From the IMG/VR virus record IMGVR_UViG_3300034072_001460, positions 1 through 21,848 of that record: a stretch of DNA of 21,848 bases, one strand, 5' to 3'. This document shows, piece by piece, positions 1,001-18,953 of the stretch. This DNA comes from a virus. A program made the position numbers and the translations under genes. Numbering within the stretch: the stretch's first letter is position 1; every line of letters begins with the position of its first letter. The notes beneath the pieces were generated by a model. The model saw only the letters and a program-made list of their open reading frames with translations, made no database searches and was not told where the DNA came from.

Positions 1001-2215
1001 TCACCACGCACTGAACCACTCCACGATAGCGGCGAAACGGCGGACAAGGGCGGCGACCTCGTTTGCGCCAACCCGATGCATGCTGAGCACATAGAGCTCG
1101 TCGCCTTGTTCGGTCGCCTTGACTGTGGCTCGCCACCACTGGCCGTCCGATTCCCACAGCAGCCGAACCTTCCTGTCATCCTCGCGGAGCGCATGGGCAG
1201 GGTTCGAGATGATCTCTGGCAGCAGACGATAATCGGCGATCGTCAACTCGGCATGGCGGCGCTTCTGCTTTTCCAGGGTCTGCAGCGAGAAGCGCACGGT
1301 GCGCGCGGTCGCGCCGATGGCAGCTGCCTGGTCAGCCGTGAGCGCGGCGATCGGGAAAGGCTGATCGGGTAAGGCGGCAAACTGATCAAACGCCGGATCG
1401 GCGACGATCTCCCGGATGGTCTGCTGAGCAGCTTTCGCCAGGCCTGCCTGAGCCGCATCCTCGACCGATTCGAGCGCCTTGTCGGCGATCGCGCGCAGAT
1501 GCGCGGTGCCGGGATTGTAGCTGAAGCCAGGATCTATGCCCTTGGGCACCATGATCGGGTCGGTCCTGCCGGCAGGATAGAAGCGCTCCCGCGCCGATGG
1601 CGGCAGATCTGTCGTGACCTTCCACCCGCGCCGTTTGAGCATCCCTTCCGAAACCTGTTCGGGCAGGCAATTGCAGCCCCACCCGTTGGGCGGGAAATGC
1701 TCCTGCCACCATGGGTGGTCGACCGGCAGGATGATGCCGTGCCAGCTCAGGTGATCAGGGCGTGGGTGCTTGCGCGGATGGTCCGACCGGTAGCGCAGAT
1801 AGGGGAACAGCTCTTTCTGCGCCTGGAAGCGTCGCCAGCGGCCCGCTGCGATGCTCATTCGGATATTGGTCCGGTAGATGGTCCGCAGGCGGCGATCGTT
1901 GACGATGATCGGCTGGTCGGTGCCAGTAAGCGCCGGGTCAGAGACCTCACCCCACCAGCCAGCGCGCTTGAGCTCCGGCAGAATGTTCGCCTTCCAGGTC
2001 TCAAAGGTGCCGCCATCGCGAATGACCTTGTCGAGCGATTTCTGCACCGCTGCCAGCAGATCGAGCTTGGCGATCTTTGCCACGGTAAAGGCACGGGAGT
2101 GCTCCTCGTGCATCATCTCCGACCATCGCACGGTCGGGCGCAGCTCCTGCCGCTCCTGCCAGACCCGGACCGTGTTTTCCGGGCTGAGATACATGGTTGG
2201 GCGCAGTTCAGGCAT
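1001..2215 (-). CDS. F: Mu F-like head morphogenesis protein with C-terminal PBECR-like nuclease region
   Basis: This 404-residue minor head protein belongs to the phage Mu F family, whose members associate with the portal during capsid assembly and can travel with the virion. Residues about 100-185 hold the family signature: a basic helix with RTIYRTNIRMS, then RPDHLSWHG, LPVDHPWW and PPNGWGCNC. Residues about 307-383 are an extra domain with VRFSLQTLEK, RHAELTIADYRLLPEII and a strand-rich WRATVKA...ELYVLSMHR stretch. This resembles the PBECR (phage barnase-EndoU-colicin E5/D-RelE) nuclease domains known to be fused to MuF proteins. The start is ATG 2215, which overlaps the stop of the upstream gene by 8 bases, as at several other junctions here; the open frame extends further but without justification. 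F and portal calls are firm; the nuclease call is pattern-based. Confidence 0.88.
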   Translation of the reverse strand: MPELRPTMYLSPENTVRVWQERQELRPTVRWSEMMHEEHSRAFTVAKIAKLDLLAAVQKSLDKVIRDGGTFETWKANILPELKRAGWWGEVSDPALTGTDQPIIVNDRRLRTIYRTNIRMSIAAGRWRRFQAQKELFPYLRYRSDHPRKHPRPDHLSWHGIILPVDHPWWQEHFPPNGWGCNCLPEQVSEGMLKRRGWKVTTDLPPSARERFYPAGRTDPIMVPKGIDPGFSYNPGTAHLRAIADKALESVEDAAQAGLAKAAQQTIREIVADPAFDQFAALPDQPFPIAALTADQAAAIGATARTVRFSLQTLEKQKRRHAELTIADYRLLPEIISNPAHALREDDRKVRLLWESDGQWWRATVKATEQGDELYVLSMHRVGANEVAALVRRFAAIVEWFSAW

Positions 2216-2462
2216 GCGTTCGCGTTTCCTTCCAGCGCTGCCAAGCTGCAGCATGTTCGGGACACAGGTCCTTCTCAGGTGCCGGGCTGGTGGTGCAGCG
2301 CGAGCAGATCGGCGCGTCGCAGGTACCGCTCTTGCGGCGGGGCACCTTCCAATCACACTCTAGATCCGCGCGACCGCCGCACTGGACGCATTTCGGTCGA
2401 CGCCGGGTGCCGCAGATAATCGCGCCGGTGCCATCGGGCAGACGGACATGCTCGCAGGTCAT
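2208..2462 (-). CDS. Small Cys-rich, probably zinc-binding protein
   Basis: This is an 84-residue protein with ten cysteines/histidines suited to metal binding: CEH near the N terminus, a CVQC pair, a lone Cys in a basic stretch, CDAPICSRC, and CPEH close to the end. The spacing suggests two small zinc ribbons or a treble-clef-like fold. It begins at ATG 2462, overlapping the stop of the methyltransferase gene by four bases (ATGA), and its own stop overlaps the start of F by eight, so it is translationally coupled on both sides. The family is not one I can name; similar Cys-rich proteins are common among phage accessory genes. It could act with the adjacent methyltransferase or be an independent DNA- or RNA-binding protein. 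There is no direct evidence for either. Confidence 0.75.
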   Translation of the reverse strand: MTCEHVRLPDGTGAIICGTRRRPKCVQCGGRADLECDWKVPRRKSGTCDAPICSRCTTSPAPEKDLCPEHAAAWQRWKETRTHA

Positions 2463-3034
2463 GATGCGGCCTCGACCTTCTCGACCTCGTTGCCCCAAGC
2501 TTCCCAGCCAGGGCGCTTCGTTCTGGCGAACAGCTCGATGCGCGGGCGATCGCCGAAGAGACGGACGATGTCGTCGGCGATGCGATCGGGCTTGCGGCTA
2601 TGCTCGCGGCGCGGCTCGACGACCAGCTGGCGGACACCGGCATCCAGGCGCGGCATCGTGCCCGTCACGCCGAGAAGGCAGATCTCCGGGTTGGCGCGGG
2701 TGTAATAGCCGGTGCCCATGGCATAGCCTTCGCCAGACGGGTTGAGCTTCGCCCAGGTGAACCCGACGGTGGCATATCGGAAGCCCCAGCGGCGCAGGGT
2801 TTCGAAGGCCTTGTCGAGCAGCGGGTCGATCGCCCACAGAAAGCAGGCGCAGTTGCCGCTCGCCAGCTCGCCGACGGGCAGCGCCGCGATCTCCCCCCAG
2901 GGCATCGTGTCGTAATGCTGGTTGGGATTGCGACCCTCGCCCTTCTCAGACCAGTTATTGAAGCCCCAGGGAGGATCGGCATAGATGATGTCGAAGCCGA
3001 ACATCGGGAGATTGGCGAAGGGGCTGTCACTCAT
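2459..3034 (-). CDS. MT-A70 family DNA N6-adenine methyltransferase
   Basis: This 191-residue enzyme should transfer a methyl group from S-adenosylmethionine to adenine N6 in DNA. The catalytic DPPW motif is at residues 20-23, right after the strand FDIIYA, as in the compact phage members of the MT-A70 family. Further family marks are the QHYDTMPW segment, CFLWAIDP, a TWAKLNPSG stretch, TRANPEICLLG, and a basic HSRKPD motif near residue 145. There is no target recognition domain or restriction partner, so it is an orphan methyltransferase. It overlaps its neighbours by 8 and 4 bases and lies in the head operon between portal and F, so it would be made late, when it could mark DNA about to be packaged. 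In Mu, late DNA modification is done by the unrelated Mom; a similar anti-restriction role is plausible but inferred. Confidence 0.9.
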   Translation of the reverse strand: MSDSPFANLPMFGFDIIYADPPWGFNNWSEKGEGRNPNQHYDTMPWGEIAALPVGELASGNCACFLWAIDPLLDKAFETLRRWGFRYATVGFTWAKLNPSGEGYAMGTGYYTRANPEICLLGVTGTMPRLDAGVRQLVVEPRREHSRKPDRIADDIVRLFGDRPRIELFARTKRPGWEAWGNEVEKVEAAS

Positions 3035-3630: not shown

Positions 3631-3845
3631 TTCCGCGCCTTGGCTCTTGCCCGTGCGCGGCGCTTTGCCCTCTTACCGAGCGGCTCGGGTACCGTGATGT
3701 GGACGATGTCTCGCCTCGCTCGAACGACGCTCCGCCGCGATCGTTTCTCGTCGCTTGCATCCCGAACCACCGGAGCGGCGATCGGCCCAAGGGTCGCACT
3801 GGCCAATAGCGTCAATGCAGCTAGGATAGTGGGGTTTGATCTCAC
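3627..3845 (-). CDS. Small secreted or membrane protein with Arg/Lys-rich tail
   Basis: This 72-residue protein starts at GTG 3845, overlapping the portal stop by four bases (GTGA). Residues about 6-27 form a hydrophobic, Ala/Leu-rich segment that could be a signal peptide or a single membrane anchor. The rest is strongly basic and ends in a run of Arg, Lys and Ala (RAKRRARARAKARK). A membrane anchor plus a polycationic tail could bind phospholipid head groups, DNA or the cell envelope. I do not recognise a family. Possible roles include an accessory lysis factor or DNA-associated membrane protein, but nothing in the sequence decides between them. The 4-base overlaps on both sides support its being translated. 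Confidence 0.62.
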   Translation of the reverse strand: MRSNPTILAALTLLASATLGPIAAPVVRDASDEKRSRRSVVRARRDIVHITVPEPLGKRAKRRARARAKARK

Positions 3846-5914
3846 GCTCCACCCTCCCGGTTCTCTTCCGCCAGGCGCATCGCGAATGCAGCGCGCTCGA
3901 TGCTCTCGCGTAGCGGCGCATCGTTCATGAGCGCGGTTGCCTCGGTATCGAGCAGCTTGAGCAGCTCGGTGGACGTGGCGGCGGCAGCGATGCGGTCGAA
4001 GATCGTGCCTGTCATTGCTGCCGTGACGCGATCGTCCTCGGCGGCGATCAGCTCGTCGATCAGGGTGTTTTCAGGCGACTGCTCGACATAGTCGGGATCG
4101 CCTTCGGCCAGGCTCACGCTGCGGATGGTGTCCTGCCAGTCGTCGACGATCGGTTCGAAGATCTCGGGACCGAACAGCAGCTCGCCGGTGAACGGCTCGA
4201 CCTTTGCCAGGTCGACGTCGCCCGGATCGTAGGTGAAAGTGACGTGCGGCAGATAGCTGGGGAAATCCCAGCTCGCGCCAGCCTCGCGCATAGTGCGGTG
4301 CCGGTTGGCGATGTAGCCGTCCCAGAAATGCAGGACGACAGCGCCCTTGTCGCCGAGCCGATCGACGACGCGCGGGCCGCCCGGCATGACGCGCAGCGGC
4401 TCGCGGTAGAAGCCGAAATCGTCGCCCATGCCGAACCAGTTCACTGGCCTCTTCGAATAGGCCACGGTGACATGCATGTCGGCGGGATCCACCACCGTCT
4501 TGAAGCCCTGCTTTCGCGCCCAGGCCACCAGCTTGTCGCCGTTGACCAGCTTGCGATGAACGTAGAGCGGGCGCGGATCATCGGCGGCGAATTCCGTGAC
4601 GGGCTGGAGCGGCTCGCGGCGGTTGTCCGTGAGCAGCAACTGCGGTGCAGAGGCAGGATCCGGATCGGCCGGATTTGCGGTCGGCGGCTTCGCCTGCTGG
4701 ACGCGGACATAGCCATCGCCATAGGTGTCCTGGAAGCTCTCTTCGTCGCGCTCCCAGCCCAGACCCTTGAGGATCGTATCGGTCTCAGCCTCGAGCTTGG
4801 TGTTGGTTTCAGCATCGACATCGCGCATCACGCGCGGCGAAGCGACATCGGGACCATAGTTGAACTCGGTCCACCAGCGCGCCGGGCCAGCGTTGAAGCT
4901 GTCGGACAGCAGATCCGCGTCCGACTTCACGACTTCCAGCTTCACGTCCGCATGCACCTCGGCCTGGCTGCGCGAGGAGCCGTCCTGGGTGGTCATGGTC
5001 TGGCTGAGCACTACCTTGGCGATGCATTCGTCCATGTAGCGGCAGAGCTGCTCATAATCGGCCACGCCACTCTTAGCGACCTGCAGCAGCTCGATGACCA
5101 TGCGCTCGGGGATCGCGATGCCGGTATCGGTCTGGATGGCCTGCAGCGCGGCGAGCAGGTTGTTGACCTGGTCCTGCGGGGTGCCGGCAGGATATTTGCC
5201 GATCGCGGTCGGCGCGCCGAACTTGTCGAGGAAGTTGTTCCAGAAGCGCAGGCCATTGCGCTTAAACAGCGTCGGCCAGTAGAGCCACTCGGCCAGGCCG
5301 CGCCCGTAGATCTCGTCGTCGTCGCTGGCGCCTGCGGTCGCCACCCAGAATTTGCGATCGGGCAGCAGCTCGCCGTTCCAGTTGACGCGGGTGATGAGCC
5401 GCAGATTGCCGGCGTCGTCATAGCGGAAGCGCCGGGCATGACGGACGCGCAGATCCGCGAACTGGAATAGGCCGTCTCGGACCTCCCACAGGCATTCGGC
5501 CACCGAATAGCCGTAGAAGGTGGCAAACAGCATCTTGCGGGTGACGCGGTCCCAGCCCAGGCGGACGAGGTTGTCGTTGAGCTTCTCTGCCGCCTCGACC
5601 GAGCGAGGGTCGTTCTCATCGCCGGGCAGAACGTTCCAGTTGCGCGAGACCACAGCGCCGATGCGCTGCTGAAGCGTCGACATGACCTGGTCGTCTTCCA
5701 GGATGACATCGTAGACGCCCCAGTCGATCGCCATGCTGATGCGCGGGTCGCGCGGCTGCTGCAGGCCAGTGACAAACGGCCTGGTGATGTCACGCCCATC
5801 CGAAGTCGTGGCTATCGGGCGCATCAGGGCCTGCATCGTGCCCGTCGGCTCGGCGATGCGTCGGGCGATCACGCGGGTGCTGCTGCTGGAAAAGGGTCGA
5901 GGCCTGCGGGCCAT
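3842..5914 (-). CDS. DUF935 phage portal protein fused to an Acb1-like 2H phosphoesterase domain
   Basis: This 690-residue protein is the Mu gp29-type portal, which forms the ring through which DNA enters and leaves the capsid. Residues about 25-440 carry the DUF935 portal signature, including DWGVYDVILEDDQVMSTLQQR, RNGLRFWNNFLDKFGAPTAIGKYP and SQTMTTQDGSSRSQAEVH. The Mu protein is about 510 residues, so this one is much longer. Residues about 448-595 form an added domain with two HxT motifs, H481-V-T483 and H557-V-T559, each in a hydrophobic strand, preceded by LYVHRKLVN. This is the hallmark of 2H phosphoesterases and resembles Acb1, the phage enzyme that degrades CBASS cyclic nucleotides. 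A helical, acidic tail (about 610-690) follows. ATG 5914 has a GAGGT site upstream. Portal call firm; Acb1-like call strong by motif, activity untested. Confidence 0.92.
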   Translation of the reverse strand: MARRPRPFSSSSTRVIARRIAEPTGTMQALMRPIATTSDGRDITRPFVTGLQQPRDPRISMAIDWGVYDVILEDDQVMSTLQQRIGAVVSRNWNVLPGDENDPRSVEAAEKLNDNLVRLGWDRVTRKMLFATFYGYSVAECLWEVRDGLFQFADLRVRHARRFRYDDAGNLRLITRVNWNGELLPDRKFWVATAGASDDDEIYGRGLAEWLYWPTLFKRNGLRFWNNFLDKFGAPTAIGKYPAGTPQDQVNNLLAALQAIQTDTGIAIPERMVIELLQVAKSGVADYEQLCRYMDECIAKVVLSQTMTTQDGSSRSQAEVHADVKLEVVKSDADLLSDSFNAGPARWWTEFNYGPDVASPRVMRDVDAETNTKLEAETDTILKGLGWERDEESFQDTYGDGYVRVQQAKPPTANPADPDPASAPQLLLTDNRREPLQPVTEFAADDPRPLYVHRKLVNGDKLVAWARKQGFKTVVDPADMHVTVAYSKRPVNWFGMGDDFGFYREPLRVMPGGPRVVDRLGDKGAVVLHFWDGYIANRHRTMREAGASWDFPSYLPHVTFTYDPGDVDLAKVEPFTGELLFGPEIFEPIVDDWQDTIRSVSLAEGDPDYVEQSPENTLIDELIAAEDDRVTAAMTGTIFDRIAAAATSTELLKLLDTEATALMNDAPLRESIERAAFAMRLAEENREGGA

Positions 5915-5918
5915 GGTG

Positions 5919-7478
5919 TTACCTCACAAATCCGGAACGGGCACCGGCAGAGCCGAACCCGCGCGTCGAGACAGGCCCTGAGGCCAGATGGGTGCTGCGC
6001 TGGCCCGCCGAGTAGAATTCCATCGGGCCGATATCCTCGTCCGAAGCGGCCACGAAATGCATGAGCGCGATCGCGTCGTCGCCGTGCCGTTTGCCGCTGT
6101 CGCCATCGGCCTTGCTGACCTTGCCGCGATCCGGGATCATCGGGATGCCGCGCACGAGCTTGATCATGCGCAGATCGTCCATGACGCCCTCATCCCAGGG
6201 GATGAGAAGCATCTGATCCTCGATCGCCGATCGCAGCTTCGGCATAAAGGCGAGATAGGTCTTTTCGGACGTCTGGACGGCCTCGACGCGGTCAAAGCCC
6301 CAGCGCTGCTGCATGGCCTCGGCCAGGGCCGAACCATTGCCGCGCGCGTCCATCTTGCCGCAGGCGAACATGGGCACACGCGAGATGATCCAGTTGAGGA
6401 TCAGCTCCTGGTCCTTGAACGGCACATTGCGCATCTCGAGCAGGAACCGCGCGACGCGGCGCATCCTGTCATCGCGCTGGCCGAACACTACCGGGGAGAC
6501 GTCACCGTTGCGGGCAAAGTCCTGGCCGAAATAGGTCGGCCTGGTCGGATCGAAGTCGTCCAGATAGGGCGCGACCTCGGTCTCCAGGAACTCCAGGACC
6601 CAGCTGGTTCGATATTCCTCGCTGTGACGCTCGAACCCATCCGGGCAGGCCAGGCGAATGACCGGCAGCTCGTGCGACATAGCCTGCTCAATGGTCGCGC
6701 GCGCCAGGTAGATGCCGGATCCGCGCGAGGGAACGACGTCCAGCTCCTGTTCCGCAGCTGCGCCATAGCGCTTGCGGAGCGATGCTTCCCACGCCGCCTC
6801 GGCCTCGGGTGACCATTTCTGGCCGGTGCGCAGGCAGATGCGCTGGTAGAGGCCCTGGCGCAGCGCGTCTTTCAGCGTCACCCGTTGGACCACGCCTTCG
6901 CGCTTGCCGCTGCGAATATCCTCGATCAGCTCGTTATAGGCGTTGTCCGCGCCGTTATGGGTGGAGATGACCACCACCTTGCCGCCCCACATGGTGAGCG
7001 CCATGGCCGCGTCGAGCAGATCGTTGAACTGGTCATGAAACGCGGCTTCATCGATCAGGACCTTACCCTGCATACCGCGTAGCGATCGCGGTTTGGACGA
7101 CAGCGCGACGATCTTGTGGCCGGACGGCAGATCGATGCGGAAGGCGTTGATGCCCTCATCCGATCCGTCGTTATGCAGGAATTCCTTCGGCTCTGTGGCC
7201 AGCTGGTCGAACGCCTGCAGGAAGTCCCCGCAATAGCCGATGAACTCGCGCGTCATGTCCTTGTTGTAGGCGATGTAAAAGAAATCCTGCCCGCCCTGGG
7301 CTGGCGCAGCGGTCAGCACGGCGTCAGCCCCGAAAGCATAGGTAAGGCCCGTGCGGCGCGACTTTTCGCTGACGAACAGCTGATGCTGGTCGCTGAGCTG
7401 GATCGCCTCGATCTGATATGGCATCAGCAGCGACGGGAGATCGTCGATTGGTGCAAGGGAACCGACCTTCGCGCTCAT
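5919..7478 (-). CDS. Mu gp28-like large terminase subunit (ATPase/nuclease)
   Basis: This 519-residue motor protein pumps DNA into the prohead and cuts it at headful completion. The ATPase part shows an atypical Walker A-like SEKSRRTGLTYAF near residues 37-49, a Walker B VLIDEAAF at 140-147 and a coupling motif VISTHNG near 170-176, the pattern of Mu-type terminases. The C-terminal RNase H-like nuclease part has an acidic residue in TYFGQDFARNGD and a second in RHGDDAIALMHF. The start is ATG 7478, with a 4-base ATGA overlap with the upstream gene; a longer open frame to 7577 lies inside that gene and is not used. It is followed after four bases by the portal, the usual packaging order in Mu-like phages. 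Confidence 0.93.
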   Translation of the reverse strand: MSAKVGSLAPIDDLPSLLMPYQIEAIQLSDQHQLFVSEKSRRTGLTYAFGADAVLTAAPAQGGQDFFYIAYNKDMTREFIGYCGDFLQAFDQLATEPKEFLHNDGSDEGINAFRIDLPSGHKIVALSSKPRSLRGMQGKVLIDEAAFHDQFNDLLDAAMALTMWGGKVVVISTHNGADNAYNELIEDIRSGKREGVVQRVTLKDALRQGLYQRICLRTGQKWSPEAEAAWEASLRKRYGAAAEQELDVVPSRGSGIYLARATIEQAMSHELPVIRLACPDGFERHSEEYRTSWVLEFLETEVAPYLDDFDPTRPTYFGQDFARNGDVSPVVFGQRDDRMRRVARFLLEMRNVPFKDQELILNWIISRVPMFACGKMDARGNGSALAEAMQQRWGFDRVEAVQTSEKTYLAFMPKLRSAIEDQMLLIPWDEGVMDDLRMIKLVRGIPMIPDRGKVSKADGDSGKRHGDDAIALMHFVAASDEDIGPMEFYSAGQRSTHLASGPVSTRGFGSAGARSGFVR

Positions 7479-7894
7479 GGCCTGCGGCCCTTCCAGCGCT
7501 GGCGAGTGTTGCGCGCGCGGGGCGACGTCATCGGCTGCACCCAGGCAATCTCGCCCCTGGCGACGGACGCCAGCCATTCGCGAACGTCTGCCTGCCCGGA
7601 CATGCCATCGAGCGCGACCAGGTCAAAGTGTAGCGGGATATGCGCGACGCGGCGGGGCCGGTAATGGTCCGACACCCGGATGATCCAGCAGCGCTCCTGG
7701 CTGTCGGCCAGGTGCACGTACTTGGTGCGAGAGCCCTTTGATGCGGCTGCTGCCCTAGTCGCCCGCGAGCACTTGATGGCCAGCACCCGGAAACCGAAAA
7801 CCTTGGCATCCTGTGCGATCGCGAACGCCAGCGACGCAATGTCGCCGGGGCCGTTCGTGCTCAGGCCAGCAACGATGCGGCGCGGCTCGGTCAT
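7475..7894 (-). CDS. Unknown protein with an RVSDH-type phage domain
   Basis: This 139-residue protein is not one I can name. The N-terminal half has a TNGPGDIASLAFAIAQDAKVFGFRVLAIKCSRA stretch that looks like an alternating helix/strand fold. The second half has TKYVHLADSQ, WIIRVSDHYRP and HFDLVALDG followed by a helix ending GEIAW. RVSDH segments preceded by a tyrosine-containing strand occur in several uncharacterised phage proteins, but I know of no established function. The last 25 residues are basic. It overlaps both neighbours by ATGA and sits between DUF6527 and the large terminase, splitting the two terminase subunits. A role in packaging or a moron carried in the packaging operon are both possible. 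Confidence 0.7.
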   Translation of the reverse strand: MTEPRRIVAGLSTNGPGDIASLAFAIAQDAKVFGFRVLAIKCSRATRAAAASKGSRTKYVHLADSQERCWIIRVSDHYRPRRVAHIPLHFDLVALDGMSGQADVREWLASVARGEIAWVQPMTSPRARNTRQRWKGRRP

Positions 7895-8229
7895 GCGTCA
7901 TCGCCCCACGGAACCATGGGCACCGTCTGGCCCGCGAGGTGATGAGTGCTGTCACCACAGAACTGCCATTGCCCATCGCGGATAAAGCTGTGGCAGACAT
8001 CGGGCGGGTCACCGTCTTCCCTGACAAAATGCGGGTCGACGGCGCGGCCAGTCCGAATGAGCAGGCTCGGCGAGAAAGTCGGAGCACCAGGGTTGCCGTT
8101 GAAGGACCATGCGGCACCATTCGCCAGCGGTTTGCTGACCGCGATGTAGTGCACCTCGTCGCAGCCAGGGCAGCGAGCCATATACCCGCCTTCCAGCTGG
8201 TTGAGATAAGGGCCGAACAGAACGGTCAT
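7891..8229 (-). CDS. DUF6527 family protein
   Basis: This 112-residue protein matches the DUF6527 family, small metal-binding-looking proteins often found in phages (sometimes mis-named after ammonia monooxygenase). The marks are a CPGC knuckle near residues 20-23 followed by an aromatic strand, [14 protein letters not shown], then [27 protein letters not shown] near the C terminus. The two Cys pairs and the conserved histidines could bind zinc. The biochemical role is unknown. It overlaps the upstream GapR-like gene and the downstream unknown by four bases each, so it is expressed with the terminase genes. Confidence 0.82.
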
Positions 8230-18278: not shown

Positions 18279-18953
18279 GTGGTAAATTTGAGCGCCTGGG
18301 ATGATGCGGCGCGACGACGGCTCGTTGCTCATGCTCGCAAATTCGGTCGTCAGGAGGACCTGGCTGCGGCGGCGGGTTTGCCAAAACCGACCCTGCAAAA
18401 GCTGCTTAGCGGAAGTGCCGAGCCTAAGATTTCGACGCTGTTGGCTGTAACTAATGCGCTGGGTATCAGCCTGGATACGATTCTGAACGGGGCTAATGAG
18501 CTGACGACCATGCAGGATTACGAGGTGTTCGTTGCAGCTCCCGTTGCTATTCCAATGCATGATGTTGCCTTCTCAGCCGGACCGGGTGCAGAAGCTTTGC
18601 TTGCTGGCGACGGAGATGCTTCAGCGGTTTTTCCTGAGGCTTGGCTGCGCGAGCAGTTCGGGAAGGTTGATGACTTGCGGCTTGTCAGGGCCTCCGGCGA
18701 CTCTATGGAGCCGACGATTACAGACGGTCAGTGGGTCATGATAGACGTGGCACGGAAGACTGGGGACGGGATTTACGCCGTTCGTGTTGCCAACGACCTG
18801 TTCATCAAGCGCCTGCAATTCCAGACCACCCGCGTCTTTGCGATCAGCGACAATCCGGCATATGAGCTGTTCATCATCAATTTGGAGGACAAGGCGGATC
18901 GCGACGCATTCCAGGTAATCGGTCGTGTGGTTTGGACAGGAAAGATGTTGTGA
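18279..18953 (+). CDS. S24/LexA-like phage repressor (cI-type, self-cleaving)
   Basis: This 224-residue protein is the likely lysogeny repressor. An N-terminal helix-turn-helix (about residues 24-66, RQEDLAAAAGLPKPTLQKLLSGSAEP) is joined to a C-terminal S24 peptidase domain. Catalytic Ser142 sits in SGDSMEP and Lys177 in DLFIKRL; the likely cleavage bond is A100-G101 in AFSAGPG. Such repressors cleave themselves when RecA is activated, so DNA damage may induce this phage, in contrast to Mu's heat-sensitive, ClpX-controlled c repressor. GTG 18279 has TTGGAG seven bases upstream. It is transcribed away from ner, and its stop overlaps the next gene by GTGA. Confidence 0.92.
   Translation: MVNLSAWDDAARRRLVAHARKFGRQEDLAAAAGLPKPTLQKLLSGSAEPKISTLLAVTNALGISLDTILNGANELTTMQDYEVFVAAPVAIPMHDVAFSAGPGAEALLAGDGDASAVFPEAWLREQFGKVDDLRLVRASGDSMEPTITDGQWVMIDVARKTGDGIYAVRVANDLFIKRLQFQTTRVFAISDNPAYELFIINLEDKADRDAFQVIGRVVWTGKML

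Follow-up and report, generated by a model that had tools for sequence, protein, structure and literature searches.

An Acb1-like 2H phosphoesterase domain inserted in the linker of a DUF935 portal protein of a Mu-like phage

The DNA analysed, hereafter the window, is a stretch of 21,848 nucleotides from IMG/VR virus record IMGVR_UViG_3300034072_001460. On its minus strand lies a portal protein gene, with the terminase large subunit gene upstream and a Mu F-like minor head protein gene downstream. The features of this region are as follows.

5919..7577, minus strand: terminase large subunit, upstream of the portal (PF03237; PHROG 2)
3842..5914, minus strand: portal protein gene, 690 amino acids, with DUF935 core, Acb1 domain and C-terminal helical tail (ORF; Pfam PF06074 and PF23474; PHROG 113, portal; full-length homologues L002-L009 and L011)
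4718..5716, minus strand: DUF935 / Mu gp29-type portal core, residues 67-399 (PF06074, E 7.1e-100; fold matches to the JBD30 and Mu portals)
4577..4594, minus strand: EFAADD linker motif, residues 441-446, directly before the Acb1 domain, at the end of the fast-evolving linker 401-440 (alignments; omega)
4130..4570, minus strand: Acb1-like 2H phosphoesterase domain, residues 449-595 (PF23474, E 6.9e-37; 7t27, Z 16.7; omega about 0.1)
4562..4564, minus strand: Y451, equivalent of the base-stacking Acb1 Tyr12 (invariant in 95/95 sequences)
4466..4474, minus strand: first catalytic motif H481-V-T483, equivalent of Acb1 H44-x-T46 (alignment to T4 Acb1; His in 94/95)
4238..4246, minus strand: second catalytic motif H557-V-T559, equivalent of Acb1 H113-x-T115 (HxT/S in 95/95)
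4154..4156, minus strand: E587, equivalent of the adenine-reading Acb1 Glu141 (E in 18/19 DUF935-fused domains)
4136..4138, minus strand: W593, equivalent of the lid residue Acb1 Trp147 (W in 15/19 DUF935-fused domains)
4097..4114, minus strand: SLAEGD motif, residues 601-606, after the Acb1 domain, resembling the FAE linker motif of DUF935 portals without Acb1; a putative head-protease site
3845..4096, minus strand: C-terminal helical tail, residues 607-690 (about 85 residues), shared with the Acb1-less portal L127 (alignments)
1001..2356, minus strand: Mu F-like minor head protein, downstream of the portal and without a 2H domain (PF04233; PHROG 220)

Both the profile match and the Mu-type gene neighbourhood place the protein in the DUF935/Portal_Mu family (PF06074). 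Its core resembles the portals of JBD30 (8rka, Z 19.7) and Mu (9knu, Z 18.8) in a low-confidence full-length model (pLDDT 55), which was used for this core match only. Its gene content assigns the window to a Mu-like transposable phage: it also encodes homologues of the Mu transposase, a MuB-like ATPase, Gam, GemA and Gp27. Relatives were found in Sphingomonadaceae; a megablast search of the whole window against phages returned zero matches. An MT-A70 DNA methyltransferase is encoded between the portal and F genes (2459-3034, minus strand). The equivalent stretch of the relative L006 (8530-10311, 10287-10880 and 12309-13475) contains, in addition, ORFs that by eye resemble C5- and D12-type DNA methyltransferases, and the methyltransferase stretch between portal and F is likely an accessory, anti-restriction pocket. 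Other genes of the window include a DUF6527 protein near the terminase genes (7891-8229, minus strand) and, at 18279-18953 on the plus strand, a repressor-like protein that combines HTH and S24 peptidase domains.

An initial annotation of the window had proposed that residues about 448-595 of the portal (4130-4575) form an added Acb1-like 2H phosphoesterase domain. Pfam sets its limits at residues 449-595, window positions 4130-4570, with a score of 126.8 bits against a curated cut-off of 27, and a separate genome search puts an Acb1 domain at the same site (E 3.6e-40); the match is far above chance expectation. The two HxT motifs are found where the annotation had placed them, 76 residues apart, and the upstream segment LYVHRKLVN, to which it had also drawn attention, contains Y451. 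An additional HxT, H539-R-T541, is not a feature of the family. PADLOC has no model for the window portal.

An AlphaFold model of the domain, built from 47 sequences (mean pLDDT 84), superposes on the FBB1 Acb1-cGAMP structure (7t27) with Z 16.7 and an rmsd of 2.0 Å over 135 residues, in line with the proposed assignment, and the best Foldseek match is 7t26 (E 6.6e-9). The next fold matches are a Burkholderia phage phosphodiesterase (Z 13) and LigT and other 2H enzymes (Z about 10 to 11). No paper describing the phage BCSR5 phosphodiesterase structures 9q2y and 9q2g was found. A Phmmer search of PDB sequences retrieved only the Pam3 portal (8hds, E 1e-26) and Acb1 (7t26, E 5e-7). 8hds is not among the fold-search matches listed, though the deposited Pam3 sequence includes the domain; this may hint that the domain is unresolved in the Pam3 virion, but as the fold library may lack 8hds the hint is given no weight here. 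The 2H fold and the LigT structures at Z about 10 would also suit a LigT-like enzyme whose task is the opening of 2',3'-cyclic phosphates or the processing of RNA ends during repair, and PHROG 755 is labelled 'RNA ligase', though the record of T4 57B, which is Acb1, has the same label. The Acb1 structures, however, match by a wide margin over LigT, and neither the LigT nor the 2_5_RNA_ligase2 Pfam profile (PF02834, PF13563) has a match in the portal at E up to 1. With the adenine-reading glutamate and the lid tryptophan retained, and none of the ORFs tested from the window recognisable as an RNA ligase or kinase, an RNA-end enzyme is quite improbable.

The nucleotide-binding residues Y12, W74, F107, E141 and W147 of Acb1 were named by Hobbs et al. 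2022 (PMC9117128). In the alignment to T4 Acb1 (gene 57B, locus L019), F551 is the equivalent of F107. The portal domain has in common with Acb1 (T4 gp57B, FBB1; PF23474; 7t26/7t27) the Pfam family, the fold, the HxT/HxT tetrad and the equivalents of Y12, F107, E141 and W147. It differs from T4 Acb1, a free-standing protein of 152 amino acids, in being a domain of a portal, in the replacement of W74 and in that its activity is predicted. Three of the four residues of the stacking pocket Y12/W74/F107/W147 are kept; the W74 position is D518. As this position is acidic (D/E) in nearly all portal-fused Acb1 domains, specificity may differ, and another residue could replace W74 in its stacking role. 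The acidic residue could point to a main target outside CBASS, such as the 2'3'-c-di-AMP of Panoptes, ADPR-type signals or CRISPR oligoadenylates, and 2'3'-c-di-AMP is also cut by T4 Acb1 (PMC12657230). Against such targets, T4 Acb1 does not accept cA4 (PMC9117128) and most of the pocket residues are retained; we consider them improbable as the main substrates.

The Acb1 domain is under purifying selection, with dN/dS about 0.1: omega against close relatives is 0.07-0.12, similar to that of the core, while the linker (401-440) gives 0.2-0.6 where measurable. The sequence and fold, the active-site residues, the phylogeny and the purifying selection thus agree on an Acb1-like 2H phosphoesterase carried by a DUF935 portal. 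The domain is probably a working enzyme. No activity measurement on any portal-fused Acb1 was found in the literature searched. A purely structural role, as a folded portal spacer without catalysis, finds some encouragement in the relative L005 (6001-8079), where the first catalytic motif carries a natural H481N substitution (CAT to AAT) in an otherwise intact gene. However, the tetrad is retained in 94 of 95 sequences and an otherwise similar portal, L127, lacks the domain altogether, which leaves this role very hard to credit.

The description as a portal-Acb1 fusion holds, for the domain is indeed joined to a DUF935 portal, but it needs refinement. The order along the window portal is core, linker, EFAADD, Acb1, SLAEGD and tail. 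In DUF935 portals without Acb1 (B3, JBD67, YPCBV-1 and others), alignments show the core leading through a variable linker to the C-terminal helical tail. Since this helical tail also follows the Acb1 domain, the domain is an internal insertion in the linker, rather than a C-terminal fusion, and the tail has been retained. FAE motifs are present in the linkers of the Acb1-less portals as TEFAEGD (B3), AEFAERA (JBD67), VGFAERD (YPCBV-1), ADFAELG (StM171), AAFAEAD (phiSHP3) and AEFAEGE (L132); they may be protease sites. The portals of Mu (gp29), B3 and JBD30 belong to the same DUF935 family, and the TerL, portal and F neighbours are alike in Mu and B3, but these portals lack Acb1 and the linker of B3 runs directly into the C-terminal tail.

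For Mu gp29, the last 124 residues are missing from the virion structure, which the authors credit to protease I (PMC11915804); the portal chains are resolved over 369 to 383 residues for Mu and 405 for JBD30. The portal crown and wing are located inside the capsid (PMC11445458). Together with the missing end of gp29, this suggests that the Acb1 domain most likely hangs off the inner face of the portal via a flexible tether, or is removed by trimming. In the related contigs, whose records are fragments, no sequence matched a Mu-type head protease above the Pfam cut-off.

Comparison with close relatives suggests that the domain comes and goes. L127 (G027) encodes an intact portal without Acb1, with 69% core identity to the window, and in the portal-core tree it pairs with the Acb1-bearing L008 (100/99) within an Acb1-bearing clade, which indicates a clean loss. 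The core of the window portal pairs with L002 (98/90; dS 0.08), while its Acb1 domain pairs with L003 (99/85; dS 0.08), against a dS of 0.45 to L002. The trees of core and Acb1 differ in this same respect, so the Acb1 segment appears to be swapped by recombination among close relatives. Clean presence or absence and apparent exchange mark Acb1 as an accessory module.

A survey of DUF935 portals for the fused domain found the whole fusion in 17 viral contigs and in 4 of 299 sampled Sphingomonadaceae genomes, which together have 14 strong DUF935 portals. None of the collected phage records spanned 80% of the portal, and at that sensitivity no DUF935-Acb1 fusion was seen there. A genome-contig search with the window portal as sole query gave nothing; with an alignment as query, it gave two hits, an Acb1-bearing relative from Sphingomonadaceae (L097) and a distant portal (L098). 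Acb1 is common on the DUF1073 portals (PF06381) of GenBank, as in phiPSA1, RHEph04, Ssp-JY39, Ssp-JY40 and Pam3, where the portal-Acb1 fusion likewise lies in the head gene cluster and the Acb1 domains are up to about 50% identical to that of the window. These are of a different portal family and their Acb1 usually ends the protein, whereas in the window a C-terminal tail follows.

A tree was calculated from 95 Acb1 domains, chosen by similarity to the query, so that free-standing Acb1 proteins are under-represented. In it, the 19 DUF935 rows group together (support 82/54; present in 81% of bootstrap trees), nested within the DUF1073 rows and adjoining six of them (99/92), which bears out a kinship to DUF1073-portal Acb1 domains. 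DUF1073-portal Acb1 is the likely source of the window domain, and the simplest reading of the tree would be a single transfer from a portal of the DUF1073 family to one of the DUF935 family. The portal-core tree sets a branch of L063, L086 and L095 apart from the main Acb1 clade, so a transfer within the family, or loss, is also needed.

The portal is a late protein, and an Acb1 linked to it would thus be present in the infected cell when needed, no delivery step being required. The explanation we prefer, with a probability of about 0.6, is that of an accessory counter-defence Acb1, housed in the portal linker and acting against CBASS signals mainly on late-made subunits. It would cleave adenosine-containing cyclic di- and trinucleotides by the metal-independent two-step chemistry of Acb1, and would do so mainly from portal subunits and assembly intermediates produced in the late phase of infection, at which CBASS fires. 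The linker would tether the enzyme without disturbing the portal ring; in the capsid, Acb1 would be on the inside and may be trimmed together with the tail. In T4, cyclic nucleotide cleavage starts about 15 min post infection, coinciding with the late onset of CBASS; of nine other Acb1 proteins assayed, all were active (PMC9117128). A SMODS match above the cut-off is present in 31 of the 299 Sphingomonadaceae genomes, and in one of ten Acb1-bearing genomes, where it is marginal; this is too sparse for co-occurrence with CBASS to lend support. Instead of acting in the cytoplasm, a 12-fold ring and the enzymes on it might have the virion as their main place of action.

The principal competitor to late cytoplasmic action is delivery by the virion, in which Acb1, enclosed at the inner side of the portal, would be cut loose by the head protease at the motifs on either side and leave the capsid with the DNA, protecting the next infection from its start. 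That each virion might carry copies of the domain into the infected cell had been raised as a possibility in the initial annotation. Acb1 does occupy the region lost from Mu gp29, where protease I is credited with the loss (PMC11915804), and an [FL]AE motif follows Acb1 in most DUF935-Acb1 portals. The Acb1 partners sampled all belong to the phage head, being portals of the DUF1073, DUF935 and HK97 types and an XkdF protease, although exchange between neighbouring genes could yield the same bias towards head genes. Nor are portals known to be ejected, and the related, fragmentary contigs gave no Mu-type protease match above the cut-off. The minimum connector diameters of Mu and Pam3 are below the about 40 Å of P1 (PMC12810830), tight for a folded domain. 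Delivery is possible but unlikely, and less likely than late cytoplasmic action. Decidedly unlikely is a fuller version, in which the head maturation protease would excise Acb1 at putative [FL]A[AE] sites and the domain would be kept in the capsid and ejected with the genome, giving each virion a ready-made enzyme against CBASS or other signals. Late synthesis explains the data without delivery, given the location inside the capsid or loss in Mu, the narrow channels and the new synthesis of T4 Acb1 at about 15 min.

Part of this is already known: Acb1 on portals is recorded in databases, and the packaging and injection of 2H-portal and 2H-MuF fusions was proposed in 2022 by Iyer, Burroughs and Aravind (PMC9503650), who describe the same general architecture and make the same anti-signalling proposal. 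The window portal, with a 2H domain fused to a head protein, shares the architecture of these fusions. Their passage is silent on DUF935, on where the domain is inserted, and on its loss, exchange and phylogeny. What is new is the DUF935 architecture with Acb1 inside the linker, its grouping, the clean loss and the apparent exchange, for which no describing paper was found in the open-licence literature. DUF935-Acb1 portals make the published idea, that structural phage proteins carry active counter-defence enzymes, testable: with the domain found in L008 but not in its sister portal L127, and with H481N occurring naturally in L005, the comparison already exists in nature. Panoptes defence is triggered by active Acb1 (PMC12657230), so that loss of the domain or of its histidine could be selected in Panoptes-bearing hosts.

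Several other Acb1 architectures were encountered in the sample. L070 (2704-4488) is the single case of an HK97-type portal (PF04860) fused to Acb1, and L079 (814-1947) the single case of Acb1 fused to an XkdF-type protease domain. In L045 (1830-4223), one ORF combines a DUF1073 portal, Acb1 and a PBECR3 nuclease domain, and in L054 (3060-6518, 1153 amino acids) and L082 (1342-4059, 906 amino acids) a DUF1073 portal and Acb1 are followed by further sequence. L020, L059 and L080, contigs from one source (IMG/VR 2833881031), all have portal-linked Acb1, one on a DUF935 and two on DUF1073 portals.
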